Both the position numbers and the translations under genes were made by a program. DNA of 64,000 nt from a bacterium (GTDB lineage Bacteria; Zhuqueibacterota; QNDG01; JAGLOF01), in contig JAGLOF010000012.1 of assembly GCA_023139105.1 (NCBI GenBank), positions 24,797 through 88,796 on the forward strand. The letters are read 5' to 3'. The first letter of the stretch is position 1. Every line of letters begins with the position of its first letter. Shown here one piece after another: positions 19,183 to 64,000 of the stretch. The notes under the pieces were generated by a model. It was not told the DNA's origin. It saw only the letters and a list, made by a program, of their open reading frames with translations, and made no database searches.

Positions 19183-20302
19183 TGTTTATCCTTTTAATAT
19201 GATAAAACTCTTTTATCTTATGAATACTGGTTGCTTGCTTGTTAAATTTACCGATTATTTCTATTGCTTTTCTATTGATTAAATTTTGAACAACTTCGGT
19301 AAATAGTTTAGGTTCGCAACCGTTTATTAAAGCGTATTTCAAACCTGTTTTATTATCTGTTATTTCTCCCGACAAAATTAATTCTTTTATTTCTTTTGAA
19401 ACCGTGTCTTTTTTAACATTTTCATCTAATTGAGAAAACAAAGAGTTAACTGCCCAATTATTATCAATATTGTAATTGGCTTCTCCTGATAATTTATCGT
19501 GATTCCAACATACTTTCAAAAACTTTTCCATACCGAGTGTATGATTTGAACCGAAAATTAAACCGTAATAATTCGCCCCTTTTTTAATGGAAAAATGATG
19601 TAAATAGTATTCTTTGTTGTTTGGAATAAGACTTCTGAAAAAATCTGCAACTGTTCTGTGTATTTCGTTGGGCTTTTTGTTTTCAAAAGCAATTTTCGAA
19701 GTATCAATATATTGTTTGGTATATGGGTGGTCTTTAAAACGATTGATAAATGATGATGAAATAAAGAAAATAAAATCAGTCTTAGGGAATGATATTAATT
19801 GTTTAAAAACATCTTCGTTGATTTGGCTAAAACCATATTGGTCAAGTAATACAAACTTGGCAATGTTTTTATTTTCAAAAACTCTTTTTAAATCAGGATT
19901 GTTAAATAATTCTTGAAAACTATAATTTAATATATGATAATCATAGACACAATTTGAACAATGGTTGTCTTTTTTGCATTGTTCTATAAAGACATCTGTA
20001 TTTTGTAGCAACTCATTACTTTTACGAATTAGCCCTTCATTAAAAAAGAATTTTATGGGCTTTTTTGCATTAGCACAATATTTACGATTTTCACCTTTGG
20101 CTTTATCTAATAAAATAAGCGGACTACCAAGATTATTTTCAATATCCGTTCCACTTCCTGCAAAGAAATCAAAAATAGAAACTTGCGTAGTATATTTATC
20201 ATAAATAAACACAGGTAACCATTCTTCAAAACTTTCCCCAAAAATTTCGAGTTTTAACTTTGAAGCTTCATCAAATGATTTTTTATTAATATTTTTTGCC
20301 AT
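19172..20302 (-). CDS. tcmP: Three-Cys-motif partner protein TcmP
   Basis: A 376-residue TcmP protein. Near residue 42 VSIFDFFAGSGTD resembles motif I of class-I SAM-dependent methyltransferases, and the defining Cys trio follows at C109, C115 and C118 (QCKKDNHCSNC). TcmP genes are found beside Gp37/Gp68-type genes, as here. The C-terminal third (from about 300) looks like a winged-helix region. Function is not established; the sporadic, phage- and island-linked occurrence hints at a mobile or defence role, but that is inference. The gene is A+T-rich and lies between attC-like repeats. Confidence 0.85.
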   Translation of the reverse strand: MAKNINKKSFDEASKLKLEIFGESFEEWLPVFIYDKYTTQVSIFDFFAGSGTDIENNLGSPLILLDKAKGENRKYCANAKKPIKFFFNEGLIRKSNELLQNTDVFIEQCKKDNHCSNCVYDYHILNYSFQELFNNPDLKRVFENKNIAKFVLLDQYGFSQINEDVFKQLISFPKTDFIFFISSSFINRFKDHPYTKQYIDTSKIAFENKKPNEIHRTVADFFRSLIPNNKEYYLHHFSIKKGANYYGLIFGSNHTLGMEKFLKVCWNHDKLSGEANYNIDNNWAVNSLFSQLDENVKKDTVSKEIKELILSGEITDNKTGLKYALINGCEPKLFTEVVQNLINRKAIEIIGKFNKQATSIHKIKEFYHIKRINNGK

Positions 20303-46369: not shown

Positions 46370-47239
46370 GGAACCTCCTTGGAGTATTTGTGAAGTAGAG
46401 ATATTAAAAAAAATTATTAATGCAAAGGAAGATACGAGGATTTGATGGCGTTGTCAACGGAAGATACAAAAAAAGGCGGTCAACCTGTGTTTATCCCGGA
46501 AGACCGCCTCTACACTTTAACAAACGATTACGATTGCGAGACCGAATGTCCTGTGCGCAATTGAATTATTGATCCATAAAATATCAGGAAGCACCAACGT
46601 TTTTTCACCTTGGAGACGCATCGCAGCAGTCTCATCAAACAACAGCGGGAACTGTAGGTCACACGAGAGATAGCGCAAGGAGATTGCCGCGGCACAGAAC
46701 GCCTCGCAATGACATATACGGGCTTAACGCTGTCGAGGCATTTGTGCAGGCAACAGCAGCAGTCTCATCAAGGTTCCACCAGCATTCATCAATATCTTTC
46801 GGGGCGGGCTGGGCGGCTCCGTGGTCTTCGTGATCTGGTGCGAGTGCTCTTTTTTAGTTTTTTTCCGTAGGCAATGCTCCTGCTCTTCAGGCCGGGCAGG
46901 GTAGCTTCGTGTATCTCCGTGTATTTCGTGGGCAATGCTCTTGTTCTTTTTTATTTTAAATTTTATATCCGTAGGTATCTGTGATAATCTGTGGCAAAAT
47001 TTTGAACTTGGAACATATTTGGGTGATATACCCGGACAAAGAACATCATTGCTCTTCCAACTTCATCCTTCTCACTTCTGCGTTTTGACCACATCGCCAG
47101 CGAACTAGACGCCGCTGGGGGCGTTAATGCCGTCATCAGTGCAGTAATTCCACTGAATGGAGTAGACAACAACAAAAAAAAAGTTGTGCGAATTTCAAAT
47201 ACAACTTGACATTTGCACAAAAAAATCCTAGTATTGAAC
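46370..47239. other. Gene-poor 870-bp region with mixed repeats
   Basis: No credible gene is present. It contains GGCGGTC/GACCGCC arms (46475-46508, a hairpin with a T run on the minus strand), two direct copies of GCAGCAGTCTCATCAA (46623 and 46756), a short REP-like AGGAGATTGCCG...CCTCGCAATGAC stretch near 46675-46715, and CCGTGTA/TCCGTAG words near 46860-46980 related to the hairpin family. It looks like an accumulation zone for dispersed repeats. A frame of 106 codons at 46963-47283 (minus) has no recognisable features. Confidence 0.5.
47206..47234 (+). promoter_or_regulatory. Sigma-70-like promoter of the ATPase gene, possibly leaderless
   Basis: TTGACA at 47206 and TAGTAT at 47229, 17 bases apart. 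The ATG is only six bases beyond the -10 box and no ribosome site precedes it, so the message may start at or next to the initiation codon. Confidence 0.55.
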
Positions 47240-48418
47240 ATGATTAAAAGAGAACTCACCTCAGAATTGTTTGACGCCGCCAAGGAGTACCCGGTGGTGA
47301 CTATTGTCGGGCCACGTCAATCGGGTAAAACAACCCTGGCCCAAATGACTTTTCACAATAAACGGTATGTCTCACTTGAGGATCCGGACAACCGGACCGC
47401 TGCTGAAATAGACCCCAGAGGGTTTTTAGGAGAGATGCCGAAAGGCGGCATCATTGATGAAATACAGCGGGTTCCCCGGCTCTTGTCCTATATTCAAGGC
47501 ATTGTGGATAGAGAAAATACGGCAGGACAATTTATACTTACCGGTAGTCATCAGCCTGAACTTCACCAGGCTATCAGTCAATCTTTGGCTGGTAGAACGG
47601 CCCTTCTAACCTTGCTGCCGTTTACAGTCAATGAAATCACATTTTACTCAAAACCATATTCCGCTTTTCAATATATTGTCCAGGGCATGTATCCCAGAGT
47701 ATATGAAAAACAACTCAAACCCAATCGCTTTTATGGCAACTATTTTCAGACCTATGTTGAGAGAGATGTACGATCAATCATTCAATTGAAAGATCTACGA
47801 CCGTTTCAACAGTTCATGAAATTGCTTGCCGGTAGAATTGGACAAATTGTCAATTATACGGCGATAAGCAATGATGTGGGCGTATCATCAACCACTATTA
47901 AAAACTGGGTGAGTGTGCTTAAGGCATCCTATATTCTCTACGAACTGCCGCCATATTTTTCCAACATACGGAAGCGGGTCATCAAATCACCTAAATTGTA
48001 CTTCACGGATACAGGTCTGGCCTGTTACCTTTGTGGTATTTCCAATTCCGAACTGCTCAAGAGAGACCCGCTGCGCGGCGGCTTGTATGAAAATTTTATC
48101 ATTATCGAGTTCCTCAAGGCCGCTTACAACCTGGGGATTCATCCTGATTTTTATTTCTACCGAGATTCCCACGGTAGAGAAGTAGACCTTATAATTAAGC
48201 ATAACGGTATAATCATTCCAGTTGAAATCAAATCAGCGGCCACCTTTCATTCCGATTTTCTCAAGGGAATAAACTTTTTCAAAAAGGCTTCAAACTTATC
48301 GGTAAACCGGGGCCTGATCATCTACAATGGAGAAAATCAATACAACATTGATAATAACCTGGTTATCAATCCCCTTTTAAAACACGACTTTTGGAATACA
48401 TTTTTCCAAAAGTTATAG
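47240..48418 (+). CDS. DUF4143-type AAA ATPase with nuclease-like C-terminus
   Basis: A 392-residue protein of the ATP-binding AAA/DUF4143 family. Walker A is GPRQSGKTTLAQ near residue 20, Walker B is GGIIDEIQRVPRLL, and sensor 1 is FILTGSHQPELHQAISQSLAGR. The C-terminal half begins FFQTYVERDVRSII and ends with REVDLIIKHNGIIIPVEIKS, the PD-(D/E)XK-like pattern. The family is very widespread, often mobile and of unknown role, sometimes linked to toxin-like behaviour. ATG 47240 is chosen because it is right after the promoter; a TTG lies upstream. Confidence 0.9.
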   Translation: MIKRELTSELFDAAKEYPVVTIVGPRQSGKTTLAQMTFHNKRYVSLEDPDNRTAAEIDPRGFLGEMPKGGIIDEIQRVPRLLSYIQGIVDRENTAGQFILTGSHQPELHQAISQSLAGRTALLTLLPFTVNEITFYSKPYSAFQYIVQGMYPRVYEKQLKPNRFYGNYFQTYVERDVRSIIQLKDLRPFQQFMKLLAGRIGQIVNYTAISNDVGVSSTTIKNWVSVLKASYILYELPPYFSNIRKRVIKSPKLYFTDTGLACYLCGISNSELLKRDPLRGGLYENFIIIEFLKAAYNLGIHPDFYFYRDSHGREVDLIIKHNGIIIPVEIKSAATFHSDFLKGINFFKKASNLSVNRGLIIYNGENQYNIDNNLVINPLLKHDFWNTFFQKL

Positions 48419-48590: not shown

Positions 48591-50069
48591 TTATAGTGAC
48601 TCTCCACAACTCTCTCTCCGGCATTCATCAAGCAGTTCAAAAACAGCCTGCTCATCTTCAAGATTAAACCTGTGAAGGACATCTTCCTCCATATGAACAT
48701 GTTTGTATTGTTCATTCTCAATGCCACACAGCATATTGCTGAGGTATGTTACATAAGTTTGATCTTTTAACTCTGCTTTTGCATTCAAAGGCGTATGGTG
48801 ATGCATTATAATTTCAACCAGGTAATCAGGAAAATTCCATTTACTTGCAATCATTGCCCCAATCTCCGAATGGCTTATTCCAATGGATATCTCTTCAATT
48901 AAAGATGAAACAGGCATATCTCTGTTGGCCAGTATTTCATCAATTTTATTGCTTATATCCTCACTGAGTGAGACTAGAACTATCTTCCCAAAATCATGAA
49001 GTAGACTTGCAAGACATGCCTGATCAGATATCCTTTCCAGATGATATTTTTTTACCAGATAACGAGTATAACATGCTGTCTTCTGACAATGATTCCATAT
49101 GGCCGAAAAATCATCATACCGCTCTGAGAGTATCTTCTTTGCTCCGGCAGCCAAAAGCAAAGCCTCAAGATTTGAAATACCTATTCTTACAACTGCATCA
49201 TTAACATTATCTATTTTATTTCCGGAACCAAAAAAAACAGAATTTGCCTGCTTTAATACATCTACCGTTAAAGATGGATCTCTTTTTATCTTTTCACTTA
49301 TCACTGCAATAGATTTGTCAGGTTTTTTACACAATTCAATCAAACTGACAATGTTTGCTGGAAGTGTTGGCAATAATTCAACTTCTTTAAGTATCTGATC
49401 TTTAATAATGCTGGTAACATGGCGGGGTCTTAAGTGGAACGGCACTTCAAACTCGGATCGAGTAATCCCGTTTTCTGAAGATATCTTGAATGCAGAAGGA
49501 TCAATACCGGAATTTCTTAAAAGAAAATAGACCATCTGTATACCCAGGCCTGCTCCTTCGCTCTCATCATAGGAAGAATTATAAGACTCAAGAAAATCAT
49601 GACAATGCTCAGCCGCTTTCAATCTTCCGTTTATTCTCTCCAGTTCCTCTTTTTGTGCCGGAGAGTTATTAATAATTGCAAAGTGAATGGCATCGTCTTT
49701 TTTTTGAATTACAAGTTCTATGTACAGATTACTTTTTTTCAATTCCGGATTATACTGGTCTGGCTCAATCAGGGCCTCCTTCTTAAATTGTTTAAGCCCC
49801 TCTTTATAATCATCGGGTGATGACAACTGCAATTGTTTTTTCTCAAAATATATACGTTTAAGATTTGCCTTATATGCATTGGTCATCAGTTCACGCACAA
49901 CCATTTCCAGGGAATCAACAAAATACTGCAAATCATGATGCATCAAAATTTTTAATAAAAGAATATCAATAAACTTGATATCTCTTTCATTAAGTTCATG
50001 ACAGGTACAATGAAGCTGTTCACCGGAAACATATTGGCTAATTAAATTCTTTAACTTGCTTGGATTCAT
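48591..50069 (-). CDS. HATPase-like and HDOD domain fusion protein
   Basis: A 492-residue cytosolic signalling protein. Residues 1-200 look like a histidine-kinase-type ATPase domain: an N-box-like MVVRELMTNAYKANLK (E60, N64), then AIINNSPAQKEE and a G-box-like EGAGLGIQMVYFLL. Residues 230-430 are an HDOD domain: LLPTLPANIVSLIELC, IKRDPSLTVDVLKQAN, VRIGISNLEALLL and a metal-free SLLHDFGKIVLVSL/ISHSEIGAMIASKWNFP. No HisKA helix or phospho-His is seen, so the ATPase part may be regulatory. HDOD proteins integrate signals in chemotaxis and c-di-GMP networks. Function is not known. Confidence 0.85.
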   Translation of the reverse strand: MNPSKLKNLISQYVSGEQLHCTCHELNERDIKFIDILLLKILMHHDLQYFVDSLEMVVRELMTNAYKANLKRIYFEKKQLQLSSPDDYKEGLKQFKKEALIEPDQYNPELKKSNLYIELVIQKKDDAIHFAIINNSPAQKEELERINGRLKAAEHCHDFLESYNSSYDESEGAGLGIQMVYFLLRNSGIDPSAFKISSENGITRSEFEVPFHLRPRHVTSIIKDQILKEVELLPTLPANIVSLIELCKKPDKSIAVISEKIKRDPSLTVDVLKQANSVFFGSGNKIDNVNDAVVRIGISNLEALLLAAGAKKILSERYDDFSAIWNHCQKTACYTRYLVKKYHLERISDQACLASLLHDFGKIVLVSLSEDISNKIDEILANRDMPVSSLIEEISIGISHSEIGAMIASKWNFPDYLVEIIMHHHTPLNAKAELKDQTYVTYLSNMLCGIENEQYKHVHMEEDVLHRFNLEDEQAVFELLDECRRESCGESL

Positions 50070-50217
50070 ATACAGCTCTATTTAGTAATCGCATCATACT
50101 AACTACTGGAACTATAGTATAATAATACGTACGCGCTTTTTCAATGGTTTCCTTAAAATCTTGTCAGGTTTTCAAAAAAATAAGGCAATACTTCATTTTG
50201 TTTGAAGATGTTAAAGA

Positions 50218-51120
50218 CTAAACAGCAATCAACCATGGTATCAGCTGCATACTTTTATCAAGGCCCAGCTTCTTCCGGATAGCAAACCGTGTAGACTCAA
50301 CAGTTCTAACACTCCTGCTTGTTAAATGGGCAATATCCTTTGTATTCATACTAAGCCGCAAAAGAGCACAAATTTTGATTTCAGTTGCTGTTAAATTACT
50401 GCTTCTTGCCAGAAGACGTTCATAAAAATCAGGATGTACTTCAATAAATCTTTTTTCAAAATCCTGCCAGTAATCTCTATCATGTGCCTCATTCTGAAGC
50501 TCTGCCAGCATTTTCTTAATTTCACTTTTCACACATTTATCCACATCCCTGAACCGGCTGTCAACATTCTTGATGGCTTCAGTGCAGACATCTGAAAATC
50601 GGGCCGAATGCATAGTCTCTGAAGTTAATTCTTTATTCCTCAACGACAATGTTTCTTCAACACATTCTTTTTCTTTCTCCACAGATACACATTTCATTTG
50701 AACACCCTGTCTCATTTTAAATAAATACACACCAATAAGCATTATCATCACCAGCAATGGAAGAGCCGTAAAAAAAATCAAGCGCGTTGTCAATTTTTGA
50801 CGCACTACTGCAGTTTGCAAATGATCTATCTGACGTCTTTTACTCTCCATCTCATATTCAAGCCTTGACACATACTTTATATTGTATGAAGAGCGACTGA
50901 CCCGACCGGCATATAGGCTATTTGCATCTCTCAAAAAGTCCGATTCCATATCATTCATGGCCAAATCATAATTCCTTTGATCAGACTCCGGCACATTGCC
51001 AATAAGTGCTTCATTGTCTATCTGACTGTCACTTTCAACCATTAAATTATGATCACTACTCTCAGCATATCCTAAAATTGCAATGATCACTAGGCATGTA
51101 CAAATAGTTTTTACCTTCAT
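50218..51120 (-). CDS. Membrane-anchored LuxR-type HTH regulator
   Basis: A signal-like N-terminus, about 75 periplasmic residues, a transmembrane helix (LIFFTALPLLVMIMLIGVYLF, near 113-133), a long coiled-coil linker, then a C-terminal LuxR/GerE HTH: LTATEIKICALLRLSMNTKDIAHLTSRS-type segment ending VRTVESTRFAIRKKLGL (about 240-285). This arrangement is used by one-piece regulators in Bacteroidota-like bacteria, usually with N-terminal TPRs that are missing here. Target genes are unknown. Confidence 0.82.
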   Translation of the reverse strand: MKVKTICTCLVIIAILGYAESSDHNLMVESDSQIDNEALIGNVPESDQRNYDLAMNDMESDFLRDANSLYAGRVSRSSYNIKYVSRLEYEMESKRRQIDHLQTAVVRQKLTTRLIFFTALPLLVMIMLIGVYLFKMRQGVQMKCVSVEKEKECVEETLSLRNKELTSETMHSARFSDVCTEAIKNVDSRFRDVDKCVKSEIKKMLAELQNEAHDRDYWQDFEKRFIEVHPDFYERLLARSSNLTATEIKICALLRLSMNTKDIAHLTSRSVRTVESTRFAIRKKLGLDKSMQLIPWLIAV

Positions 51121-51421: not shown

Positions 51422-52804
51422 TTAAGATAGTGTACCGCCTTTTTTCAAGCGATAGCGCAAAGTATCCAGGCTGAGTCCCAACAGACGGGCTGCACGAGAG
51501 ACATTACCTTCGGCCTTATTCATTGCAGAGTTGATCAGATATTGTTCAAGCTCAGGCAGAGAAATGCCTGATTGTGGTATTTGTATAGATTCTAACCATG
51601 AATCCGATATTGCAGCAGCACCGATCAGGATAAGATCAGGCGCATCAAGCATTGAATTCTCAGTAAATATAACAGCCCTTTCAATAACATTGCGCAGCTC
51701 TCTGACATTACCGGACCAACGATGTGCCTTTAGTTTTTTAATAGCAGAATCACTGAGTCCTGATACGGTTTTGTGAAAACTGTATGCAAAATGATTAATA
51801 AAATTTTCAGCAAGCAGAATAATATCATCATCAAGTTCTCTTAGCGGTGGCAGTTCCAAATTGATCACATTAAGCCTGAAAAACAGATCCTCACGGAACT
51901 CTTTATTCTGAACCGCTTTCATCAGGTCTTTATTTGTTGCGGCAATGATGCGAACATCAACCTGCCGTTCCTGCGTATCTCCCAAACGCCGGAAACGCTT
52001 GGACTCCAGGAAGGCGAGGAACTTGGACTGAAGCGAGAAAGGCAGCTCACCAATTTCATCGAGAAAAAGAGTACCGCCATCAGCCGTTTCAAGTAGCCCT
52101 TTTTTGCTGCTGAGAGCATGTGTGAACGCACCTTTTTCATAACCGAATATTTCAGATTCCAACAGAGTATCCGGAATACCTGCACAATTAATCTCTACAA
52201 AAGGTGCGCCCTGTTGCATTGAGGCATTATGAATAATACGGGCAGCAAGATTTTTACCTGTTCCACTTTCCCCCTGGAGCAGAACAGTAGAAGACCGGAC
52301 AGGTGCAATTTTTTTAACAAATTCATGAATACTCTGAATCTGAGCAGATCTGCCGATAAATCCGCTCTGTGCCTCAATTCCGCTACGTTGCAGTGTTGAT
52401 TGAAGCAGCATGATCTCATATTTTTTCTGCTGAATCTCATGTTCCAGGGCCACCTCTTGCGTCCCATCCGAGACAATACAGAGAAGCTTGGCATAGCCGT
52501 TCTGCGTATATGGAAGAATAGTAAGATGATAATAACAGGATTGACCGGAAGATTTAAACCGTGTCAATTTAGTTATGATAAAACGTCGTTTTTTCCGTGT
52601 TACAACTGACTTGACTACATCTTCCGAGCCAATCAATTCCGGAAAAACATCCCATAGCGGATTATTTTTTTTTACCTGAATTGCGATATATTGCTTTAAA
52701 TTTAAGCTGTACTCCTGCAAGATTAAATCCTGATCAAAAAGAGCAAAAGCAGTCTTCTTCTCCCGCAGAATTACTTCAAAATAGTCTTTCACAGCCAACT
52801 CCAT
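51422..52804 (-). CDS. Sigma-54-dependent activator with PAS-like and Fis domains (GAFTHA variant)
   Basis: A 460-residue enhancer-binding protein: a PAS-like N-terminus (about 1-120), a coiled-coil, an AAA+ domain and a C-terminal Fis-type HTH (NVSRAARLLGLSLDTLRYRLKK). Walker A is GESGTGKN (about 178-185) and Walker B LFLDEIGE (about 246-253). The sigma-54 contact loop reads GAFTHA (about 225-230) instead of GAFTGA, which in characterised proteins is important for sigma-54 contact, so activation may be changed. There is no receiver domain. Start ATG overlaps the GTPase stop (TAATG), making it the last gene of a four-gene operon. Confidence 0.9.
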   Translation of the reverse strand: MELAVKDYFEVILREKKTAFALFDQDLILQEYSLNLKQYIAIQVKKNNPLWDVFPELIGSEDVVKSVVTRKKRRFIITKLTRFKSSGQSCYYHLTILPYTQNGYAKLLCIVSDGTQEVALEHEIQQKKYEIMLLQSTLQRSGIEAQSGFIGRSAQIQSIHEFVKKIAPVRSSTVLLQGESGTGKNLAARIIHNASMQQGAPFVEINCAGIPDTLLESEIFGYEKGAFTHALSSKKGLLETADGGTLFLDEIGELPFSLQSKFLAFLESKRFRRLGDTQERQVDVRIIAATNKDLMKAVQNKEFREDLFFRLNVINLELPPLRELDDDIILLAENFINHFAYSFHKTVSGLSDSAIKKLKAHRWSGNVRELRNVIERAVIFTENSMLDAPDLILIGAAAISDSWLESIQIPQSGISLPELEQYLINSAMNKAEGNVSRAARLLGLSLDTLRYRLKKGGTLS

Positions 52805-53313
52805 TAAAACATGCTGCACAGTGTCCTGAATGTCATATCAACCTGATGATCTGTCTTAGCACTAGTATATACACAGCGAACATTCAACGCCTCAACATTA
52901 CGTGAAATAGTATCAAAATCGACAGCATCTTTCTCAAGCAGATCATATTTATTTGCTGCAGCCAGACATGGTGCGCCTTTGGAATTTTCATGAAAAAAAC
53001 ATCGCATGGGAGTAAGTGCCTCCAAAGTCTCCGGACGGGACACATCAAAAACAAGAATTGCACCATGTGCACCATGAAGGTATCGTTTTAAAACATTGTC
53101 ATACTTTTCAATATGAGCAAGATCCCATATAATTAAATTGAACTGTGCCTTCTCATCAAGAGCGATTAGCCTCTGGCTGAGCTGTACACCGATTGTTGAA
53201 TGATAATTCTCCTCAAAGGTCTGATGTACAAAACGGCGTACCAGGCTGGTCTTTCCAACACCGAATGAACCCAGGAGACAGATCTTTTTACTTAATGTAA
53301 CTACATCAGCCAC
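52804..53313 (-). CDS. Rab/Ras-like small GTPase (prokaryotic Rup-type)
   Basis: A 169-residue Ras-superfamily GTPase. G1 is GSFGVGKTSL (15-24), G2 is STIGV (T40), G4 NKYD (121-124) and G5 TSAK (150-153). The G3 motif DTAGQE is replaced by WDLAHIE (63-69), so the catalytic Gln is missing and intrinsic hydrolysis may be slow or partner-dependent. The protein ends CSMF, which resembles a CaaX box but may be chance. It starts with GTG 53313 after AGGAGG that lies in the end of the OmpA-family gene, and the sigma-54 activator follows. The operon suggests a GTPase/effector module. Confidence 0.85.
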   Translation of the reverse strand: MADVVTLSKKICLLGSFGVGKTSLVRRFVHQTFEENYHSTIGVQLSQRLIALDEKAQFNLIIWDLAHIEKYDNVLKRYLHGAHGAILVFDVSRPETLEALTPMRCFFHENSKGAPCLAAANKYDLLEKDAVDFDTISRNVEALNVRCVYTSAKTDHQVDMTFRTLCSMF

Positions 53314-53314
53314 A

Positions 53315-55057
53315 TTACCTCCTGTCCCGTATCTCTAATTCAACCCGCCGACCGGAAAGCTCTGCGTCTTTTGGCGAAAGACTTGAACCAAAATACTGCA
53401 CAGCCAGCTGGGCATGAGAAACACCTCTGTTGAATAAATACACTCTCACTACACCGGCTCTTTTTTCAGAGATCTGATTATTGACATTTTCAGAACCACT
53501 CTGATCAGAAAAACCTTTTATTATTACCCAGCTCTCTCTATGAGATATCAGCCATTCCGCCAGAGAATCAAGCTCCTGCATTTGCCTATGATTTAAATCA
53601 TATGAGCCGGATGCAAACAAAATCGGGTCTTCTTCAACATCATCAATTAAAGCCTTACTATCAATCGAATTTGACACATCAAGGTTGTTTTCAACAACTG
53701 CGATACCGGAGACCAACCCTGCCAGATATCCGACATGACGCTTCAATTCCCGGCTGGACACATGGCCTTCCAATATTACAGTTGTACCATCCAGATGCAG
53801 CCGACATATGAGCCGGCCATCTATTGTATACGGTTGAAATCGATGTTCAATTTCACTGATTACTGACTGTTTGAGTGTAAATATGATAACCCGATTATCA
53901 ACATAATCCACAGCTTCATGAGTAGAGATGAGACTGTCAAGACGTTGCTCCGTCTTTATATCCTCAACAGATCCGGAAAGTAGGATTCGACTATTTTCAA
54001 TATTACATATAACATGGGCAAAACCACCATCTGCTTGTAGACAATTCCTGAGCCCTGTCATATGCCGGGAAGTCCGCAAATATGGATAAAGATTGCTAAC
54101 GCCCCATATAGCCAATACGAGAACTATAAAGCTGGCTACCAGGATTAATCCGTATGGCCTTTTACTCTGACCCTTCTGCATCTCCTCATCTTGACTATCA
54201 CGAAACAGCTTGATCAATTCTGAAAGCAGCTGCTTTGCACTGCCAAAACAAGACTGGTCACCTTGAAAATCCCGCAGTTCCGAGCCGCATTGATGTTGAA
54301 TCCTGTCTAAAAGCCGGGTGACCATTCCATTAAACCTGGCAGGTGTGACTCCTTTTACTACAATGGCTGTATAAAAAGAATTTGCTGCCTCAATTATAAT
54401 ACGCTGATCACCATATTGAATTTCATTAATATCCTGCGACTCGTTCTGACTGAAAGCTTCATCTGCAAATGATTGAATGGCCGTCAACATACCGCTTACA
54501 AGATCTTTATTCATGCCTGCTGCATCTGAAGTGGATGAAACATGTGTCATCAACAGACCGCTCTCGCGGTGAATAAGAAATATCTCCTGAATTGAAAATG
54601 GCAGGGCTTCTTTGAGTATAAGGTCTTGTGGGCTGACACCTGAAATTTTTGCTGTTATCTGATTCCTTACCCGGCTCCTGCGCATGGCATTCTCAATTTT
54701 ATTATTGATTGTATCAGCCAGATGTTTAATTGCTTCGGCCACAGCTTTGCGCACGGTCTTACCAATAATAGGGTAGAGTGCATCTACTATTTCTTCTTTA
54801 GCCTCTCCTATCTGATGCTTGATTGCAGGCCCGATAACCGGAGAGAGCGTCTTTGCCACATCATCTTTAGACCGGTTGATATTAAGATCAATCACATCAT
54901 TGAGCACAGGACTGAATGTTGATATCAACCACTCTTTCTCAGAAAGCTGCTTTCTAAGTGTATTTAGTTCTACTTCTGTCTCGGTAATGCGTGTCCTGTC
55001 ATCTTTAAGAAGAAGTCGACGCAGGTGTTCCAGTTCTCTATCTTGCACAGTACTCAT
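53315..55057 (-). CDS. Roadblock-like, BON and OmpA domain membrane protein
   Basis: About 580 residues in order: an N-terminal helical region (1-140) with the repeated ALYPIIGKTVRKAVAEAIKH-type segment; a region (150-240, EALPFSIQEIFLIHRESGLL...RIIIEAANSFYTAIVVKG) that looks like a roadblock/LC7 GTPase-regulator domain; one transmembrane helix (303-325); two BON-like repeats (near 335-395 and 400-470, ILLSGSVEDIK and VILEGHVSSRELKRHV); and an OmpA peptidoglycan-binding domain (480-580, VIIKGFSDQSGSENVNNQIS). It would link a cytosolic GTPase to the cell wall. Similar proteins occur with small GTPases in cyanobacteria and others. ATG 55057 overlaps the upstream stop. Confidence 0.85.
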   Translation of the reverse strand: MSTVQDRELEHLRRLLLKDDRTRITETEVELNTLRKQLSEKEWLISTFSPVLNDVIDLNINRSKDDVAKTLSPVIGPAIKHQIGEAKEEIVDALYPIIGKTVRKAVAEAIKHLADTINNKIENAMRRSRVRNQITAKISGVSPQDLILKEALPFSIQEIFLIHRESGLLMTHVSSTSDAAGMNKDLVSGMLTAIQSFADEAFSQNESQDINEIQYGDQRIIIEAANSFYTAIVVKGVTPARFNGMVTRLLDRIQHQCGSELRDFQGDQSCFGSAKQLLSELIKLFRDSQDEEMQKGQSKRPYGLILVASFIVLVLAIWGVSNLYPYLRTSRHMTGLRNCLQADGGFAHVICNIENSRILLSGSVEDIKTEQRLDSLISTHEAVDYVDNRVIIFTLKQSVISEIEHRFQPYTIDGRLICRLHLDGTTVILEGHVSSRELKRHVGYLAGLVSGIAVVENNLDVSNSIDSKALIDDVEEDPILFASGSYDLNHRQMQELDSLAEWLISHRESWVIIKGFSDQSGSENVNNQISEKRAGVVRVYLFNRGVSHAQLAVQYFGSSLSPKDAELSGRRVELEIRDRR

Positions 55058-55395
55058 CTCTTCTCCCACCTGCCAACATAGTAGCTCTTCTTCTTGACTC
55101 TATTTGATTCGGACTTAATACGCCTGTGTATATGGGCCAGCGAGGCATCAGTTTTTTTAATATAATCTTCATGGGCGCAGTTGATGTCAAGCAGACGTTG
55201 ATCAAAATTATCTTGCCGCTGCTCCACAGCATTCAAACGCTTCTCCAACGTTTTACTGAGCTTTTTCATATTTTGAATTGTTTTATCTACAACAGCCAGG
55301 GCTTCACTTAAAATAATTTCCCTGATAGCGGCAAGAGTACCCACAGTTTTCTCCTGTACAGAACTATCTTCAAATGACTGAGATTTTTCAGACAT
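55054..55395 (-). CDS. Small coiled-coil protein, first gene of the GTPase operon
   Basis: A 113-residue, strongly charged protein with heptad-like helices (TIQNMKKLSKTLEKRLNAVE then QRQDNFDQRLLDI) and a basic tail (RRIKSESNRVKKKSYYVGRW). No membrane segment or motif is known to me. It is translationally coupled by ATGA to the OmpA-family gene, and ATG 55395 has GAGG seven bases ahead. It is probably a structural or regulatory partner of that protein. Confidence 0.75.
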   Translation of the reverse strand: MSEKSQSFEDSSVQEKTVGTLAAIREIILSEALAVVDKTIQNMKKLSKTLEKRLNAVEQRQDNFDQRLLDINCAHEDYIKKTDASLAHIHRRIKSESNRVKKKSYYVGRWEKR

Positions 55396-55659
55396 TAATA
55401 TCCTCATAATGTATAAATTGAATTATCGTTAAATTAGCAATTATATAACCTAATATCAAGTACAAAGCAATTTCTTCTATACTAACAGAAGAGTAAACGA
55501 TGGAGCTGTATCAAAAAGCCCCTTTTCACAACATGTCGGCTCCCGAATGCTTCTATCAGGAAGTTACAGATCAATCAATAAAGGGTAAGAAGGTGCTTGG
55601 ACGTATTCAATTTATACCGTTACTTAAATCTGGCTCCTTACTGCCCGGAGGAATTTCAT

Positions 55660-56662: not shown

Positions 56663-59600
56663 TCACGCCCCCTTCCTCAATCGCCACTCTTCACGCATGG
56701 TGTACAGAACAGGCACCACAAACACCGTCATAATCTCAAACACCATGCCCCCAAAAGATGGAATTGCCATGGGCACCATCACGTCTGCACCCCGACCCGT
56801 AGAGGTCAATATGGGAATCAATGCGAGGATGGTGGTTGCCGTGGTCATCATAGCCGGACGGATGCGCCGGGATCCGGCAAAGATTGCGGCCTCGCGGATC
56901 TCAGCAACGGTTTCAGGCTTCACCTCATCAAAGCGCTGTTTCAAGTAGGTCGAAATCAGAACCCCGTCATCTGTGGCAATACCGAATAACGCAAGAAAGC
57001 CGACCCACACAGCCACAGACAGATTGATAGGATGCATCTGGAAAAGCTGCCGCATGGATTCACCGGCAAAGCTGAAATTCATGAACCACGCCTGACCCCA
57101 GAGCCAGATCATGACAAATCCACCTGCCCAAGCCACAAAGATACCGGAGAAGACGATAAGCGTCGTCGAGGCACGTTTAAACTGAAAATAAAGAATCATG
57201 AAAATGGCAAAGAGGGCCAGCGGCAGAATCACCCTCATACGTTTGGTAGCACGGATCTGATTCTCATAGCTGCCTGCAAAGGCATAGCTGACTCCGGCGG
57301 GAATGATCAATTCACCTGAATCAATCTTACTTTTAAGATATGCCTGGGCCTGTTCCACCACATCCACCTCTGCCCAGCCGTCCCGCTTGTCAAAAAGGAC
57401 ATAACCGAGCAAGAAGGTATCCTCACTCTTTATCATCTGTGGGCCGCGCACATAACGTATACGTGAAAGCTGCCTCAGCGGAATCTGCACGCCCCCCATA
57501 CCTGGCACCAATATAGTTTCCAATGATTCAATATCTCCGCGCAGCTCCCGCAAATAGCGTACACGCACTGGGTAACGCTCCCTACCTTCCAACGTAGAAG
57601 TCAACGTCTTCCCCCCAATGGCCGTTTCAATAATATCTTGAACCCTGCGAATAGGCATACCGTAACGGGCAATAGCCAGCCGGTCGATCTCTATCTCCAG
57701 ATATGGCTTGCCTACAATGCGGTCCGCAAATACGGCCTCAGACTTTACCGCCGGTATTTCCTTTAACAACTTCTCCAACTGTAGACCTACACGCTCAATG
57801 GTCTCCAGATCAGGGCCTTTGACTTTAATGCCCATAGGTGCGCGCATACCAGACTGCAACATCACCAACCTGGTGGAGATAGGCTGTAGTTTCGGCGCAG
57901 AAGTTGTCCCTGGAAGTTTGGCCGCCTTCACTAGTTCATCCCAGATGTCATCGGGCACACGGATATGATCACGCCAGTTGCGGAATGAAGTACCCCTTTT
58001 ATCGGGAATCAGTTCTCCCTGATGGTCCCGAACAAAATTACCATCACCATCTACCTTGAACTTCAGCCGTTTTCCATTTTTATCAATACGATATTCCGGT
58101 TTGTAATTGACAATGGTCTCAATCATGGAAATAGGAGCAGGATCCAACGGTGTCTCTGCTCGTCCCAGTTTGCCGACAACGGTTTCAACTTCAGGAACAG
58201 AATAAAGAGCCATATCCAACTTACGCAGCACGTCATAAGACTCTTCCATGCCGGCATGCGGCATAGTGGTGGGCATGTATAGATAGCTTCCCTCATCCAG
58301 CGGCGGCATGAACTCCTTGCCCAAACCCGGGAATGTATGCACCATGGCCTGATAGGGGCGGGTTTTTTCGATGAATGACGGCATGAACCCGAAAATCCGG
58401 CCAAAGCCGAACCACACCATGGCTCCCATTACCACTAAAATGAAAGGTCCGGCCAGGGCTTTAACCTTATTGTTCAAAGCCCAGCGCAGTAACCGGGTAT
58501 AATATCGGGTGAAGAGCATAAGACCGCCCATGACCACCCCGATAATCAATGCGGCAAATAAAAAGTTTAAAAATCCGGAACGACCAATGCCTAGCGGTGC
58601 CCATACTCCAGACAGAATTGCCACAACCGTAGCAATAATTATCCAGTTGAGCCATACCGGCAGATAAGCCTGAGATCGTTGCGGCAGATGCCTGCGTACA
58701 AAATGAAATAGACCAAACAACAGCACTACCAATCCCAGAGACCAAGAGAAACGAAACATGATGACAAGACCAAGCACTGCAAGCAGGCTATTCCAGATAT
58801 GTCCGGTTATATGTGAACGTTTCTTCTTTCCAAACAGTATATTCGCCAACGACGGCAGAATTGTCAGAGCCAGAACCACAGAGGAGATAAGTGCCAATGT
58901 CTTGGTATAGGCAAGTGGTTTGAAGAGTTTGCCCTCGGCTGCCGTCATTGTGAAAACCGGTAGAAAGCTGACCACGGTAGTTGATACTGCTGTCAAAACG
59001 GCACTGCCTACTTCGGAAGTCGCTTTGAAGATAACCTGTCTCAGGTCTGCATCTGGCGGTGCTTCATCTAAATGCCTCATTATATTTTCAGAGACGACAA
59101 TGCCCATATCCACAATGGTTCCAATAGCGATGGCAATCCCTGAGAGGGCCACAACATTGGCATCCACGCCAAAGAGTTTCATACCGACAAAGACCAACAA
59201 TACTGTCATTGGCAGCAGCGTGGAAATAAGCAATGACGAGGAGAGATGCATAATCATTATGAGGACAACTATGACTGTGATGAGGATTTCATCACGCAAG
59301 GCATTATTCAATGTACCCAGGGTCTCATAGATCAGTCCGGTGCGATCATAGAATGGGATAATAGTGACCTGAGAGAACGTGCCGTCGCCCAGCACCTTTG
59401 AAGGCAGTCCCGGTGCAATTTCATCAATTTTACGCTTTACTTCCTGAATGGCGGCTAGAGGATTCTCACCATAACGGACAACCACCACGCCGCCCACAGC
59501 TTCTGCGCCCTCCTTGTCCAGGGCACCCCGGCGAATTGCCGGGCCCAGGGCCACATGGGCCACGTCTTTCACCAAGAGGGGGACGTTGTTGCGCACTGAG

Positions 59601-60469
59601 ACCACGGTATTTTCCAGATCTGCTACAGACTTGATAAAACCGATACCCCGCACCACATATTCTACTTTGTTAACTTCAATGGTGCGCGCACCCACATCAA
59701 TATTGGAACCTCGTACCGCCTGAATCACATCACTCAACGGCACTCCGTGCTGACGCAGTGTCGCCGGATCCACATCAATCTGATACTCTTTGACAAATCC
59801 GCCCACAGAGGCCACCTCTGCCACACCATCGGCTGATTGCAAACCGGACCGCACATACCAATCCTGAATGGATCTCAGCTCCTGCAAGTCCCATCCACCC
59901 GTAGGATTACCGTCTCTGTCACGACCCTCCAGGGTGTACCAGAAAACCTGACCCAAAGCCGTAGCATCAGGCCCTAGCGATGGACTAACACCATCAGGCA
60001 ATGTACCCGGCGGCAGGGCGTTGAGTTTCTCCAAAATACGGCTGCGTGACCAATAAAACTCAGCCTCCTCTTTAAAGATAACATAGATGGTAGAAAAGCC
60101 GAACATAGAGTACGAACGCACCGTCTTTACTTCAGGCACGCCCATCAACGCCACAGTTAGTGGATATGTCACTTGATCTTCCATGTCCTGAGGCGACCGC
60201 CCCATCCAGCGTGTAAAGACAATCTGCTGATTCTCGCCAATATCAGGAATGGCATCCACCGGCACAGGATCACGCTCAATGCCCGGAATATGCCAATCAA
60301 AAGGCGCCACCATCACACCCCACATCATTACTGCCGACAGTCCCAAAAAAACCACCAGCTTATTCTCCAGGCATGCCTTGATCAATTTGTCTAATAAATT
60401 CATTTTTTGTTTTGTCATGATATGTTTTATCCGTGTAAATCCGTTTAATCCGCTTTTTCCGTGTTCCAT
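56663..60469 (-). CDS. cusA: CusA/CzcA-family heavy-metal RND efflux pump
   Basis: A large RND inner-membrane pump, 1,268 residues, longer than CusA (about 1,047) because of an extra hydrophobic insert (about 560-680) typical of Bacteroidota-like members. The three Met of the CusA copper/silver pathway have counterparts: M732 (YLYMPTT), M782 (SMIETI, exactly 50 residues later as in CusA) and M870 (VMLQSGM). GIAIAIGTIVDMGIVVSENI is the proton-relay helix. It exports Cu(I)/Ag(I) with CusB and CusC. The start is uncertain: ATG 60469 lies in a CCGTG-type repeat; 60418 and 60403 are alternatives. Confidence 0.93.
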   Translation of the reverse strand: MEHGKSGLNGFTRIKHIMTKQKMNLLDKLIKACLENKLVVFLGLSAVMMWGVMVAPFDWHIPGIERDPVPVDAIPDIGENQQIVFTRWMGRSPQDMEDQVTYPLTVALMGVPEVKTVRSYSMFGFSTIYVIFKEEAEFYWSRSRILEKLNALPPGTLPDGVSPSLGPDATALGQVFWYTLEGRDRDGNPTGGWDLQELRSIQDWYVRSGLQSADGVAEVASVGGFVKEYQIDVDPATLRQHGVPLSDVIQAVRGSNIDVGARTIEVNKVEYVVRGIGFIKSVADLENTVVSVRNNVPLLVKDVAHVALGPAIRRGALDKEGAEAVGGVVVVRYGENPLAAIQEVKRKIDEIAPGLPSKVLGDGTFSQVTIIPFYDRTGLIYETLGTLNNALRDEILITVIVVLIMIMHLSSSLLISTLLPMTVLLVFVGMKLFGVDANVVALSGIAIAIGTIVDMGIVVSENIMRHLDEAPPDADLRQVIFKATSEVGSAVLTAVSTTVVSFLPVFTMTAAEGKLFKPLAYTKTLALISSVVLALTILPSLANILFGKKKRSHITGHIWNSLLAVLGLVIMFRFSWSLGLVVLLFGLFHFVRRHLPQRSQAYLPVWLNWIIIATVVAILSGVWAPLGIGRSGFLNFLFAALIIGVVMGGLMLFTRYYTRLLRWALNNKVKALAGPFILVVMGAMVWFGFGRIFGFMPSFIEKTRPYQAMVHTFPGLGKEFMPPLDEGSYLYMPTTMPHAGMEESYDVLRKLDMALYSVPEVETVVGKLGRAETPLDPAPISMIETIVNYKPEYRIDKNGKRLKFKVDGDGNFVRDHQGELIPDKRGTSFRNWRDHIRVPDDIWDELVKAAKLPGTTSAPKLQPISTRLVMLQSGMRAPMGIKVKGPDLETIERVGLQLEKLLKEIPAVKSEAVFADRIVGKPYLEIEIDRLAIARYGMPIRRVQDIIETAIGGKTLTSTLEGRERYPVRVRYLRELRGDIESLETILVPGMGGVQIPLRQLSRIRYVRGPQMIKSEDTFLLGYVLFDKRDGWAEVDVVEQAQAYLKSKIDSGELIIPAGVSYAFAGSYENQIRATKRMRVILPLALFAIFMILYFQFKRASTTLIVFSGIFVAWAGGFVMIWLWGQAWFMNFSFAGESMRQLFQMHPINLSVAVWVGFLALFGIATDDGVLISTYLKQRFDEVKPETVAEIREAAIFAGSRRIRPAMMTTATTILALIPILTSTGRGADVMVPMAIPSFGGMVFEIMTVFVVPVLYTMREEWRLRKGA

Positions 60470-60474
60470 TGCTC

Positions 60475-62811
60475 TTAATCTCTAGGCTCAAACACCTCAC
60501 GCACCTCACCACAACGCGGCATCTCCGCGCCCCAGTAGGAGTTGTGCGTTTCTTCATGATTCTGTAGCCAGCAAGCCCCGGTATCATCAAAGGCCATGGA
60601 GCAGTAGATCTGATAATAATCGACATCATCGCTATGGCCAAATGTCTTCACCAATTTGAGCACAGCCAGACTTATGGCCTTAAATGCTATCCGGGCTTCG
60701 CTGATATCACTGTAGTGCTCTGCATGCTCTGTTTCACTTAGCATGGCCTTTGCCAAAGAAGACCACTGTTTAATTGCTGTCTCATCAAGGTCTTTCACTT
60801 TTACCTTACCGACCACTTTATTCAATTTTTTCAATGCCTTCTGTCCAGCTTTAAAATTATCATCAGCCAAATTTTTCTGTGCATCAAAATAAGACTTATA
60901 GACCGATTTCAACTCTTTAACAAATTTCGCCGGTACATCGTCAATTATCTGGATGGGCAGCACCTCATCAAAACCAAAAATAACCTTAACCTCACCACAA
61001 CGTAACATCTGATCGCCAAAATATGGGTTATCCACAGTATTATGATTCTGTAACCATGGCGCACCTTTGTCATTAAATGCCATAGTACAGAACACCTCAA
61101 AGTGCGGCGTATCACCCACATGCCCAAAGGCATGTTCCATTTTGAGTATAGCGTAGCTGATAGCTTCAAAGGCTTTGCGTGCCTCTTCAATATCAGACCA
61201 GTGAAGTACATGTTCCACCGCCTCATGGATCTTATCATCAATGGCATGCCACACCGGCATCGCATCTGTAGCAACCAGATTCATTGGTATAGCTTTCATT
61301 CGTTGATCCAGATCAGCAATGGCTTTCTTGGCAATCTCAAAATCATCATCAGCCAATGCTGACTGGGCCGTAAAATAGTCCGCATACACAGGGGCTAAAA
61401 CAGAGAGAAAATCAACGGTCACTTCCATACGGTCCAATGCATAAGGTTCTAATGTCTCTGCTGATGTTTCGGCGGACACAGATCCAGCACCATCTCCATG
61501 ATGTGCATGGGCACCGCCGGAACCGCCGCCTTCCGGGTTCATCATGCTGAACTTACCTGCAATCTGCATGGCCGAGTCGATCTTAAAATTGCCATGCACC
61601 ACAACTTTTTCCCCTGAGTCTAATCCAGAAATGACGGCATAGACATCGCCATAGCGTTGACCAACAACAATCTCCCGCATCTCAAAAACCGGCGTATCCG
61701 TATCCGGTTTGCGTATATAAACGATGGCACGTTTTCCAGTTTTCATCACCGCCGTCACAGGAACCTGAAGCACAGACGTGTCCGATCCTACAGCAACCTC
61801 GGCGCGTACGAACAACCCCGGCTTCAACCTGCCATCTGCATTCTCCACATTCAATCGGGCCCGTACCGTGCGCGTCTTCTCATTGAGAATGGGATCGACA
61901 AACACAACTTTGCCTTCAAACATTTCGCCGGGAAACGCCTCTACAGTAAACCGGGCAAATTGCCCCACGTGCAGACGACCCAGCTCAGTTTCATATACAT
62001 CCAACGTGACCCACACCCGGGACAGATCAGCAATGGTGTAAATGGGCGCGCCCTCTTTAACATACATGCCCTCCACTGCATTTTTATGGATGACCACACC
62101 ACTCAGCGGCGATAAAATAATGATGCGGTCAGTGGCCTTGCCCCTCTTTTCAATTTTTTCTACCTGCGTTTGAGTCATTCCCAACTGCCGCAGCTTCTCC
62201 CGCGATGCTTCCGTAATCATCTGCGCCGACCGCTTCTGAAATTCAGACTGCGCGCCCTCCAGTGATTTGATCGCCTGCAGAAGCTCTTCCTGGGCCGCGT
62301 AAATCGCCGGACTGTACACTTCCACCAGGGGATCACCCATTTTGACGACGGTGCCGGTAAAATCCACGTATAACTTCTCCAGTCGACCGCCGGTCCAGGC
62401 GGCTATCTTGCCTGTGCGCGTCTCATCCAAAGCCACCTTGCCGGAGAGCCGGACCAGACCCTCAGCAGGGCCAAATACGACTGGCGCCGTGACGATCTCC
62501 GCCAGAGCCATGGCCGCCTCAGACATCTTCAGTTCAACGGCACTCTCCCCGCCTCCATCAGACTCCAGCGGGATCAGATCCATGAAGCAGATGGGGCACT
62601 GGCCGGGTTCCGGCAACTGGATGTTCGGATGCATGGAGCAGGTCCAGGTGGTCGGTCCGCTGTCGGTAGCCACCTGGTCGTGGCCGTTAGCGGCAGTGTT
62701 AGTGGGGCCGCCGCCGCGCAGCGCCCAGCCGAGGAAAAATATCGCCAACATCGTCACCACAAACGCGACGCGCCGGCTGGTCAGACTATCGGTAATCTTC
62801 GGTCGCATCAT
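60475..62811 (-). CDS. cusB: CusB-type periplasmic adaptor with metal-binding and two DUF3347 domains
   Basis: A 778-residue adaptor protein. After a signal/anchor helix, residues 55-82 are a heavy-metal-binding domain (WTCSMHP and GQCPICFMDL), and 100-400 form the MFP core (GKVALDETRTGKIAAWTGGR, ARLNVENADGRLKPGLFVRA). Two tandem DUF3347 repeats follow (each AFGHVGD/FGHSDD, CTMAFNDKGAPWLQNH and CSMAFDDTGACWLQNH), normally one per protein. It connects the pump to the outer-membrane channel and may sense or hand over copper. The start overlaps the cusC stop by ATGA, with GAGGAGC ahead; the stop is five bases before cusA. Confidence 0.92.
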   Translation of the reverse strand: MMRPKITDSLTSRRVAFVVTMLAIFFLGWALRGGGPTNTAANGHDQVATDSGPTTWTCSMHPNIQLPEPGQCPICFMDLIPLESDGGGESAVELKMSEAAMALAEIVTAPVVFGPAEGLVRLSGKVALDETRTGKIAAWTGGRLEKLYVDFTGTVVKMGDPLVEVYSPAIYAAQEELLQAIKSLEGAQSEFQKRSAQMITEASREKLRQLGMTQTQVEKIEKRGKATDRIIILSPLSGVVIHKNAVEGMYVKEGAPIYTIADLSRVWVTLDVYETELGRLHVGQFARFTVEAFPGEMFEGKVVFVDPILNEKTRTVRARLNVENADGRLKPGLFVRAEVAVGSDTSVLQVPVTAVMKTGKRAIVYIRKPDTDTPVFEMREIVVGQRYGDVYAVISGLDSGEKVVVHGNFKIDSAMQIAGKFSMMNPEGGGSGGAHAHHGDGAGSVSAETSAETLEPYALDRMEVTVDFLSVLAPVYADYFTAQSALADDDFEIAKKAIADLDQRMKAIPMNLVATDAMPVWHAIDDKIHEAVEHVLHWSDIEEARKAFEAISYAILKMEHAFGHVGDTPHFEVFCTMAFNDKGAPWLQNHNTVDNPYFGDQMLRCGEVKVIFGFDEVLPIQIIDDVPAKFVKELKSVYKSYFDAQKNLADDNFKAGQKALKKLNKVVGKVKVKDLDETAIKQWSSLAKAMLSETEHAEHYSDISEARIAFKAISLAVLKLVKTFGHSDDVDYYQIYCSMAFDDTGACWLQNHEETHNSYWGAEMPRCGEVREVFEPRD

Positions 62812-64000
62812 CGTGCTCCTCGTTCGTCAGACGTGGCCGCGAGCATCGGCGCCGGCCCGGCGATCAGTTGTTCGATGCGCGCCAGACTGATCAGGCGATC
62901 GGCGCGCGCGCGCGCTTCGGTCAGTTCGAAAGCGAGCAGGGTCTGCTGGGCTTCAACGATGTCGAGGAAGTCAGCCTCGCCGGTCTCGTAAGCAGCGGTT
63001 ACGGCGTCGAGTGCTTGCTGACCCTTGAGCAGCAAGCTGCCACCGTAGAGATTCACCGTGCGCACGGCCTCGCGGTGTTCGAAGCGGACCCGTTCGAGCC
63101 TCGCTTGCAGGCCGACGGTAACGTCGCGGCGCGCCGCCTCGAGCGTCCGCTGTCGACCCGCCGCCTCGCGTTCGGCCGCGGCGTACTTGCCCCACCAGAG
63201 CGGCACATTGATGGCCAGACGGGCGATCACAGGGTCCTTACCGCTGTCGGGTGTCGCAGGTATGGCCGACTCGCCGGTCATGATGTAGTCGATGCCGAGG
63301 GTCACGTCGGGATACTTCTGCCGACCCGCGAGGGAGGCCGCGTAGACCGTGCTCTGCTCTTCGTGAGTCAGTGCGACGAGTTGTGGCTGCCGCTGGAGCA
63401 GCGCAGCGACCAGAGAGTCTTCGGCCACCGCGTGTGCGGCCGCGGGCAGGGTCGCGGGCCAGGTGATCGGCGCCGTCACCGGCTGTCCCAGCGCAGCGTT
63501 CAGTTCGGCGGCCGCCGGCCGGCGCGCATCGGTCAGCTCTGCCAGCCGATCGGTCAGTTGCGAATACTCGACCTGGGCCTTGAGCATATCGGCGAACCGG
63601 CCCGCACCGGCTGCGTATCGCGCCCGCGCGACGACTTCCCACTGACCGACCAGCGCCAGGTGGCGATCGGTGATGCGCACCGCCTCACTCAGATACGCCA
63701 GGTCGTAGTAGGCGCGGCGGACGCGAAAGAGTACGTCGAGTACGACGCCGGCCAGACGAGCCTCGGCCGCCGCCGCCTGTTCGTCGGCGATATCGCCGCG
63801 TAGCGACTGCTTACCGAACCACGGCAAGGTCTGGCTGAGCGAAAAGATCCGTTGCTGGGGCCCGGTTCGCGTCTGGACCGGTACGAGCATTTCGCCCCAG
63901 CTGAAGCGGGGATCGGGCAGTGCGCTGGCCTGCGCACCGACCTCGCCGTCGGCCTGCCAGCTGGCCAGCGCGGCGGCGACCGCCGGGCTGTGGGCCAGAG
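62808..64000 (-). CDS. TolC/CusC-family outer-membrane channel (N-terminus outside window)
   Basis: About 397 C-terminal residues of a TolC-type efflux channel; the frame is open through the right edge, with SPAVAAALASWQADGEVGAQ and ALPDPRFSWGEMLVP visible at the edge. SLSQTLPWFGKQSLRGDIAD and the C-terminal VTAAYETGEADFLDIVEAQQ repeat are family features. The gene is distinctly more G+C-rich (visibly over 60%) than its downstream partners, with changed codon choice. It is translationally coupled to cusB, so it belongs to the same copper/silver efflux operon. Confidence 0.9.
   Translation of the reverse strand, partial: LAHSPAVAAALASWQADGEVGAQASALPDPRFSWGEMLVPVQTRTGPQQRIFSLSQTLPWFGKQSLRGDIADEQAAAAEARLAGVVLDVLFRVRRAYYDLAYLSEAVRITDRHLALVGQWEVVARARYAAGAGRFADMLKAQVEYSQLTDRLAELTDARRPAAAELNAALGQPVTAPITWPATLPAAAHAVAEDSLVAALLQRQPQLVALTHEEQSTVYAASLAGRQKYPDVTLGIDYIMTGESAIPATPDSGKDPVIARLAINVPLWWGKYAAAEREAAGRQRTLEAARRDVTVGLQARLERVRFEHREAVRTVNLYGGSLLLKGQQALDAVTAAYETGEADFLDIVEAQQTLLAFELTEARARADRLISLARIEQLIAGPAPMLAATSDERGAR

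Follow-up and report, generated by a model that had tools for sequence, protein, structure and literature searches.

The closest described counterpart of the operon considered here is the Group 1 Rup system (Wuichet and Sogaard-Andersen, PMC4316618). In the main-text sections of that 2014 paper, it comprises a coiled-coil protein, a protein in which an unknown domain is followed by a transmembrane segment and an OmpA domain, a Rab-like GTPase without the G3 glutamine, and an output protein with an invariant glutamine in its N-terminal part. According to the same sections, kinases or c-di-GMP enzymes (DGC/PDE) are the typical outputs, the partner domain was left unidentified, no Rup member had been experimentally characterized by 2014, and the Rup family is the proposed source of the eukaryotic Ras superfamily. 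We found the same four-gene frame in a 64,000-nucleotide stretch of bacterial DNA (the whole stretch that was analyzed, below “the window”), where the output is a sigma-54 AAA+ activator. The original prediction held that the combination with a sigma-54 activator seems undescribed. The four-gene frame itself was published in 2014; in the main-text sections of PMC4316618 and the main texts of the open PMC literature, no sigma-54 activator was found as a Rup output.

Operon organization and conservation

The four ORFs lie on the minus strand, and their ends overlap or touch, as seen in the ORF list and the window sequence. They encode, in order of transcription, a predicted coiled-coil protein (55054..55407; 117 aa from the longest start, with an inner ATG at 55395), a protein with predicted longin and transmembrane parts followed by BON-like and OmpA parts (53315..55069; 584 aa from the longest start; below, the longin protein), a Rup-type (Rab-like) small GTPase (52804..53313; 169 aa), and a sigma-54 activator (51422..52819; 465 aa from the longest start, with an inner ATG at 52804). 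The activator consists of a predicted PAS domain that we call RED (for Rup-associated effector domain, a label coined in this analysis), an AAA+ domain, and a Fis-type helix-turn-helix. If the inner ATG starts of the original prediction are used, the junctions read ATGA, a one-base gap, and TAATG. Searches of the four ORFs with Pfam and NCBIfam returned Ras (9.9e-31), Sigma54_activat (2.2e-66) together with HTH_8, OmpA (2.1e-16), and, under the cut-off, BON (3.1e-05). In these two collections, no family scored above the cut-off for the coiled coil or for the first ∼300 residues of the longin protein.

That the four genes belong together, as originally claimed, is borne out by the recurrence of the gene order across 82 genomes of the window's phylum. 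The same genes were thus found when sought elsewhere, the order is not unique to the window's genome, and on sequence evidence the operon is a real, conserved unit. The 82 genomes were scanned independently with three profiles, which matched in 31 (GTPase), 32 (RED head domain), and 30 (N-domain of the longin protein) of them. RED is present in all 31 genomes with the GTPase (Fisher 9e-22), and the N-domain in 28 of them (Fisher 3e-16), a phylum-wide association that argues against a chance gene order. The exceptions are three GTPase genomes without the N-domain (G052, G066, and G043, where the GTPase is at a contig start) and two N-domain genomes without the GTPase (G053, G072); in three more (G028, G036, G048), the GTPase–activator pair and the N-domain gene are on different contigs. 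An uninterrupted same-strand RED–sigma-54 ORF follows 29 of the 31 GTPase genes of the phylum, 28 of them at once and that of G081 after 1.6 kb, and this ORF is broken in G051 and G075. The one other genome of the window's family lacks the GTPase, RED, and the N-domain altogether. The view that the activator is the likely output gains from this linkage of RED-bearing activators to the GTPase within the phylum.

Relatives of the longin protein occur in 22 of 59 genomes (the window's own included) and in at least 574 stretches of GTDB genomes, 80 of which were kept; they come from Calditrichota, KSB1, Chloroflexota, and cyanobacteria, and several of those from Chloroflexota have SH3-type tails. 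The collected loci hold 96 distinct GTPase genes, a set gathered mostly through the N-domain and hence biased (the scans of the 82 genomes are unbiased), and 93 of these genes have a same-strand RED within 4 kb, 73 of them within 150 bases; L063, L095, and L120 have none within 4 kb. The nearest RED in the 93 loci is joined to a sigma-54 activator (37), a kinase (24), a kinase with REC (13), a cyclase (10), GGDEF (2), or no recognized output (7), and it is in Chloroflexota and cyanobacteria that the same GTPase and RED are found with kinases, cyclases, or GGDEF enzymes. The N-domain gene may also be apart from the GTPase: elsewhere in the genome (L156–L158), on the other strand (L113, L122), or with no match anywhere in the genome (L166, L167). 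Broken frames were seen in two loci, for RED/activator in both L164 and L028 and also for the N-domain in L164.

A predicted longin domain on a protein with predicted membrane and wall anchors

The longin protein has a single hydrophobic helix at residues ∼305–328 (54086..54157, minus strand; hydropathy peak of 2.56 at residue 307), and therefore its N-domain is predicted to be cytoplasmic and its BON and OmpA parts periplasmic. The BON-like stretch (53672..53791, minus strand) is below threshold (PF04972, E 3.1e-05, 24.6 bits against a cut-off of 27). The OmpA domain (53369..53620, minus strand; PF00691, E 2.1e-16), predicted to bind peptidoglycan, has both the GFSDxxG and the RA motif, which presumably have a role in that binding. 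With this helix and this domain, the membrane- and wall-anchored partner of the original prediction is kept, as a prediction.

The N-domain had been called roadblock-like, and its predicted structure is better described as longin-like. The predicted longin domain spans residues 158–294 (54188..54598, minus strand), and the structure model has a pTM of 0.58. The topology of the N-domain model, b-b-a-b-b-b-a-a, is that of a longin (E119-127, E133-138, H148-167, E175-179, E182-188, E192-199, H206-226, H233-261), and the model matches solved longins structurally in Foldseek and VIA comparisons; by our own fold assignment, the best 50 VIA structure matches are longin-type. At the level of sequence profiles, the longin signal is nearly nil (PF19031 in two of 94 members, best E 0.049, among the 25 commonest of 63 families), and comparison of the N-domain with PDB sequences gave no relevant match. 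Two C-terminal helices come after the sheet in the model, whereas roadblock/LC7 domains (MglB) have an N-terminal helix and one C-terminal helix. For this reason, and given the longin-type VIA matches, we set the roadblock reading aside in favor of longin; roadblock structures are absent from the best 50 VIA matches but may rank lower. Our prediction for the “unknown domain” of this protein is accordingly the longin fold, which eukaryotic RabGEFs have, and not a roadblock.

The protein encoded ahead of it has a heptad score of 1.57, whereas random ORFs have a median of 1.03 and a 90th percentile of 1.3. The coiled coil begins with an IRxIIFG-type motif at its head (LAAIREIILS, 55306..55335, minus strand), and a similar one is seen at the N-terminus of the longin protein (LEHLRRLL, 55010..55033, minus strand). 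In 78 of 87 loci, an ORF immediately ahead of the longin gene has a motif of the form IDQIRDIIFG, versus 116 of 2000 control ORFs, a contrast that is somewhat inflated because the control counts single ORFs, the loci may offer several, and L092 was counted twice. In the longin proteins, the similar motif (LEELRRVLL) precedes the helical part in 79 of 86 cases versus 292 of 3000 control segments. Given this common motif, we infer that one and the same partner probably serves as docking site for both proteins.

The GTPase, RED, and the activator

The assignment to the Rup-type GTPases stands (PF00071, E 9.9e-31; Rab1A is the best PDB sequence match, at 8.3e-25). G1 (GSFGVGKTS), G4 (NKYD), and G5 (TSAK) are Ras-like, and the G3 motif (WDLAHIE, 53107..53127, minus strand) lacks the catalytic Gln, and its G3 Gly is replaced by His. 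The G3 Gln is present in only five of 96 related GTPases and missing from 91. The His replacement is confined to a subset of the sigma-54 group (16/36, versus 0/54 of the others).

RED takes up residues 9–151 of the activator (52367..52795, minus strand) and has the PAS fold in its predicted structure. Its glutamine 131 (52427..52429, minus strand) is invariant in 95/95 sequences past the E and length filter and is the sole invariant column among 96 aligned RED rows. We equate it with the invariant Gln of the Group 1 Rup output as presented in the main text of PMC4316618, an identity that is assumed. Used as a query in a sequence search, the RED region of the window retrieved nothing beyond itself, and at 1e-8 the RED profile matches nothing but the window's copy in its own genome. 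All 30 matches better than 1e-27 in the 82 genomes are beside a GTPase (that of G081 at 1.6 kb). Among six weaker rows, two are pieces of the broken G051 copy, which adjoin its GTPase, and the other four are on contigs without a GTPase match; two of these four (L170, L171) stand at the head of hybrid kinases (1078 and 999 aa). The idea that RED is a generic PAS was rejected, as the domain is narrower than that by both its unique match in its own genome and the GTPase adjacency of its strong matches.

The rest of the protein is that of a sigma-54 activator, with an AAA+ domain (51857..52357, minus strand; Pfam) in which Walker A (GESGTGK) and Walker B are seen in the sequence, a Fis-type helix-turn-helix, and RpoN encoded in the same genome. 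The sigma-54 contact loop (52115..52132, minus strand) reads GAFTHA for the canonical GAFTGA. Its fifth residue is N, H, or D, and never G, in all 38 distinct Rup-linked activator ORFs (GAFTNA in 28, GAFTHA in seven, GAYTNA in two, GAFTDA in one). Among 23 further activators of the window's genome in which the loop could be read, 18 keep the Gly and five lack it (30 of 35 matches were taken, six of which were unread). In NorR, activity was retained with D, N, Q, S, C, or M at this position and lost with all other residues, hence with His, and the N and D changes gave a constitutive, sigma-54-competent protein (PMC2941729). The Rup-linked activators may have a differently set sigma-54 loop; alternatively, those with His may be weak.

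Sequence evidence for possible contact between the components

A natural fusion (P0121; a single sequence, one of four matches among 256 candidates) joins a GTPase (residues 1–165) to RED (184–325) and the start of a HisKA domain, and L092 has tandem GTPase–RED pairs. Covariation, measured as mutual information over 90 GTPase–RED pairs, reached a top score of 0.365, above all 120 shuffles (maximum 0.358); these were done within phylum and output class, a stricter null than 20 shuffles by output class. The switch face of the GTPase takes part in 14 of the top 25 pairs (shuffles: mean 7.2, maximum 11). The top pair is S46–Y134, with Y134 three residues from Q131, and I68, at the site of the missing Gln, covaries with RED Q130. 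In the aligned sequences, residues of the GTPase switch face do covary with RED.

For the GTPase and the longin domain, the top pair (80–200) scored 0.446 against up to 0.356 in 60 shuffles. Arg80 and Asp200 occur in the sigma-54 group as 12 with both, none with R only, two with D only, and 15 with neither, and in non-cyanobacterial others as 30/1/1/2 in the same order; 18 cyanobacteria have neither. The window itself, with H80 and S200, has divergent copies. When placed on the tree, the R80–D200 pattern came down to few independent events (four supported pairs, sign test p 0.5), and the GTPase–N-domain pairs had no switch-face enrichment (7 of 25, shuffle mean 8.6). The G67–F28 covariation fell away once it was placed on the tree.

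Proposed mechanism and alternatives

The best-supported mechanism, as a proposal from sequence and models, is a relay from the envelope to transcription, and on balance we think it probable that this Group 1 Rup-type system works in that way. The longin protein, predicted to be anchored in membrane and wall, would set the nucleotide state of the Rab-like GTPase, as an exchange factor or docking platform by analogy with Mon1-Ccz1, Fuzzy-Inturned, and TRAPP for Rabs. In its GTP form, the GTPase would bind RED, docking through its switch face close to the invariant Gln131; this residue may in addition provide the glutamine missing from the GTPase. With the GTPase docked, the AAA+ ring would be released to work with sigma-54, and the activator would likely switch envelope-related genes; the signal may be envelope strain.

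The same glutamine can be read differently, with RED as a GTPase-activating partner whose Gln131 completes the active site, so that the output reads GTP hydrolysis and the longin protein is a GTP-dependent wall target. The lack of the G3 Gln in most of the GTPases beside an invariant glutamine in RED, the I68–Q130 covariation, and the 2014 paper, whose main text considered a glutamine in trans and pointed to that of the output protein (PMC4316618), all speak for this reading. We nonetheless consider it rather unlikely as a replacement for the relay: effectors can stimulate hydrolysis, which makes the two compatible, and the five Gln-bearing GTPases still sit in such loci. Quite improbable, in our judgment, is a GTPase that acts as a spatial organizer like MglA and marks a cell site together with the longin protein, the activator only reporting that state. 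MglA/MglB is a precedent (parts of PMC4316618 and PMC10933270), and coiled coils with a wall anchor fit a localized complex, but DNA-binding activators, kinases, and enzymes of second messengers serve as outputs here, not motility machinery.

Somewhat less probable still is that the conserved N-domain is an MglB-like roadblock GAP. The longin and roadblock folds are related, as treated in parts of PMC3521125 and PMC10933270. Ragulator roadblock chains are also among the Foldseek matches of the model. The pair of helices that follows the sheet points the other way, as do the longin-type best VIA matches. We give the least credence to the notion that these are co-transcribed neighbors without physical contact; the contact evidence is sequence-based, but conservation across three phyla, the fusion, the covariation, and the tandem pairs in L092 would be hard to fit with it.

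A bolder extension of the envelope-to-transcription relay is tentative and, for now, doubtful: bacteria would run a full cassette of longin exchange factor, Rab-like GTPase, and effector with interchangeable outputs, with its anchorage reaching from membrane to wall; it would be a relative of the RabGEF–Rab pairing of eukaryotic membrane traffic and in this phylum would relay mechanical or osmotic strain to sigma-54, with the shared IRxIIFG-type helix competing for the longin groove as an on/off latch. SNARE helices compete for the longin groove on Ykt6 or VAMP7.

Downstream genes, promoters, and neighborhood

Same-strand genes after the activator include an MscS-channel cluster in nine and a DUF3078/DUF481 cluster in eight of 37 sigma-54 loci. 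OmpA-type proteins follow in eight of 27 loci searched for them, and three of four LEA_2 genes found are downstream. The Pfam scan of followers covered one member of the MscS cluster, one of the DUF3078 cluster, and four OmpA-type followers. In the window, MscS, OmpA-type, or other recurrent followers are absent after the activator. The genes downstream of it (48591–51120, minus strand) instead encode an HDOD protein that weakly matches HATPase and a membrane protein whose match to a LuxR-type HTH is also weak, neither of which is among the recurrent neighbors in relatives. A published survey links sigma-54 with the bacterial exterior (PMC3162934).

Sigma-54 promoters were not in excess in the window (two sites, 5.5 expected) or, by first-order Markov resamplings, in relatives, either before downstream genes (one of 28 regions, 1.2 expected) or upstream of the operons (four of 30, 1.6 expected, shuffles up to five). 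A perfect -24/-12 site (TGGCAC-N5-TTGC) is present upstream of the coiled-coil gene of L031. An opposite-strand gene of 156–293 aa recurs upstream in six relatives.

Beside the window's operon is a heavy-metal type RND efflux operon (56663–63890, minus strand), with an ACR_tran pump, a HlyD-type adaptor with heavy-metal-binding and DUF3347 domains, and an outer membrane factor. Elsewhere in the window, a DUF5131 protein gene overlaps a gene for 376 aa without a Pfam match at 1e-5 (18424–20302, minus strand), and an AAA_14/DUF4143 ATPase is encoded at 47213–48418 (plus strand).

Comparison with known systems

The predicted longin, as a recurrent operon partner of a bacterial Rab-like GTPase, offers a specific partner, residues that may form the interface, and an effector domain to work on, and it bears on whether longin–Rab pairing predates eukaryotes. 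The sigma-54 variant has the further merit of a simple readout, a reporter gene. New here are RED as a predicted PAS domain, the longin prediction, the GTPase–RED covariation and fusion, the shared motif, and the MscS/envelope followers in some relatives.

Eukaryotic longin RabGEFs (Mon1-Ccz1 with Ypt7, Fuzzy-Inturned with Rab23, TRAPP with Ypt1) share with this system the longin fold, predicted in our case, and a Rab-like GTPase as partner. In contrast, the present system is bacterial, has one predicted longin per chain, carried on a transmembrane–OmpA protein, and would have exchange activity only as a putative function. The actinobacterial conservon (CvnABCD) and MglA-MglB likewise combine a small GTPase with a regulator of the longin/roadblock class, and the conservon also has a signaling enzyme in its operon; those systems pair an MglA-family GTPase with a roadblock partner, whereas here a PAS-type head domain is common to the outputs. 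NorR and other sigma-54 activators with sensory N-domains have the same order of N-terminal regulatory domain, AAA+, and HTH, but in the Rup-linked activators the N-domain is a predicted, GTPase-linked PAS and the fifth loop residue is N, H, or D throughout. Overall, the operon is a known predicted system, Group 1 Rup as laid out in the main text of PMC4316618, with a sigma-54 output not found in print in the literature covered here and with a longin as the new prediction for its partner domain.
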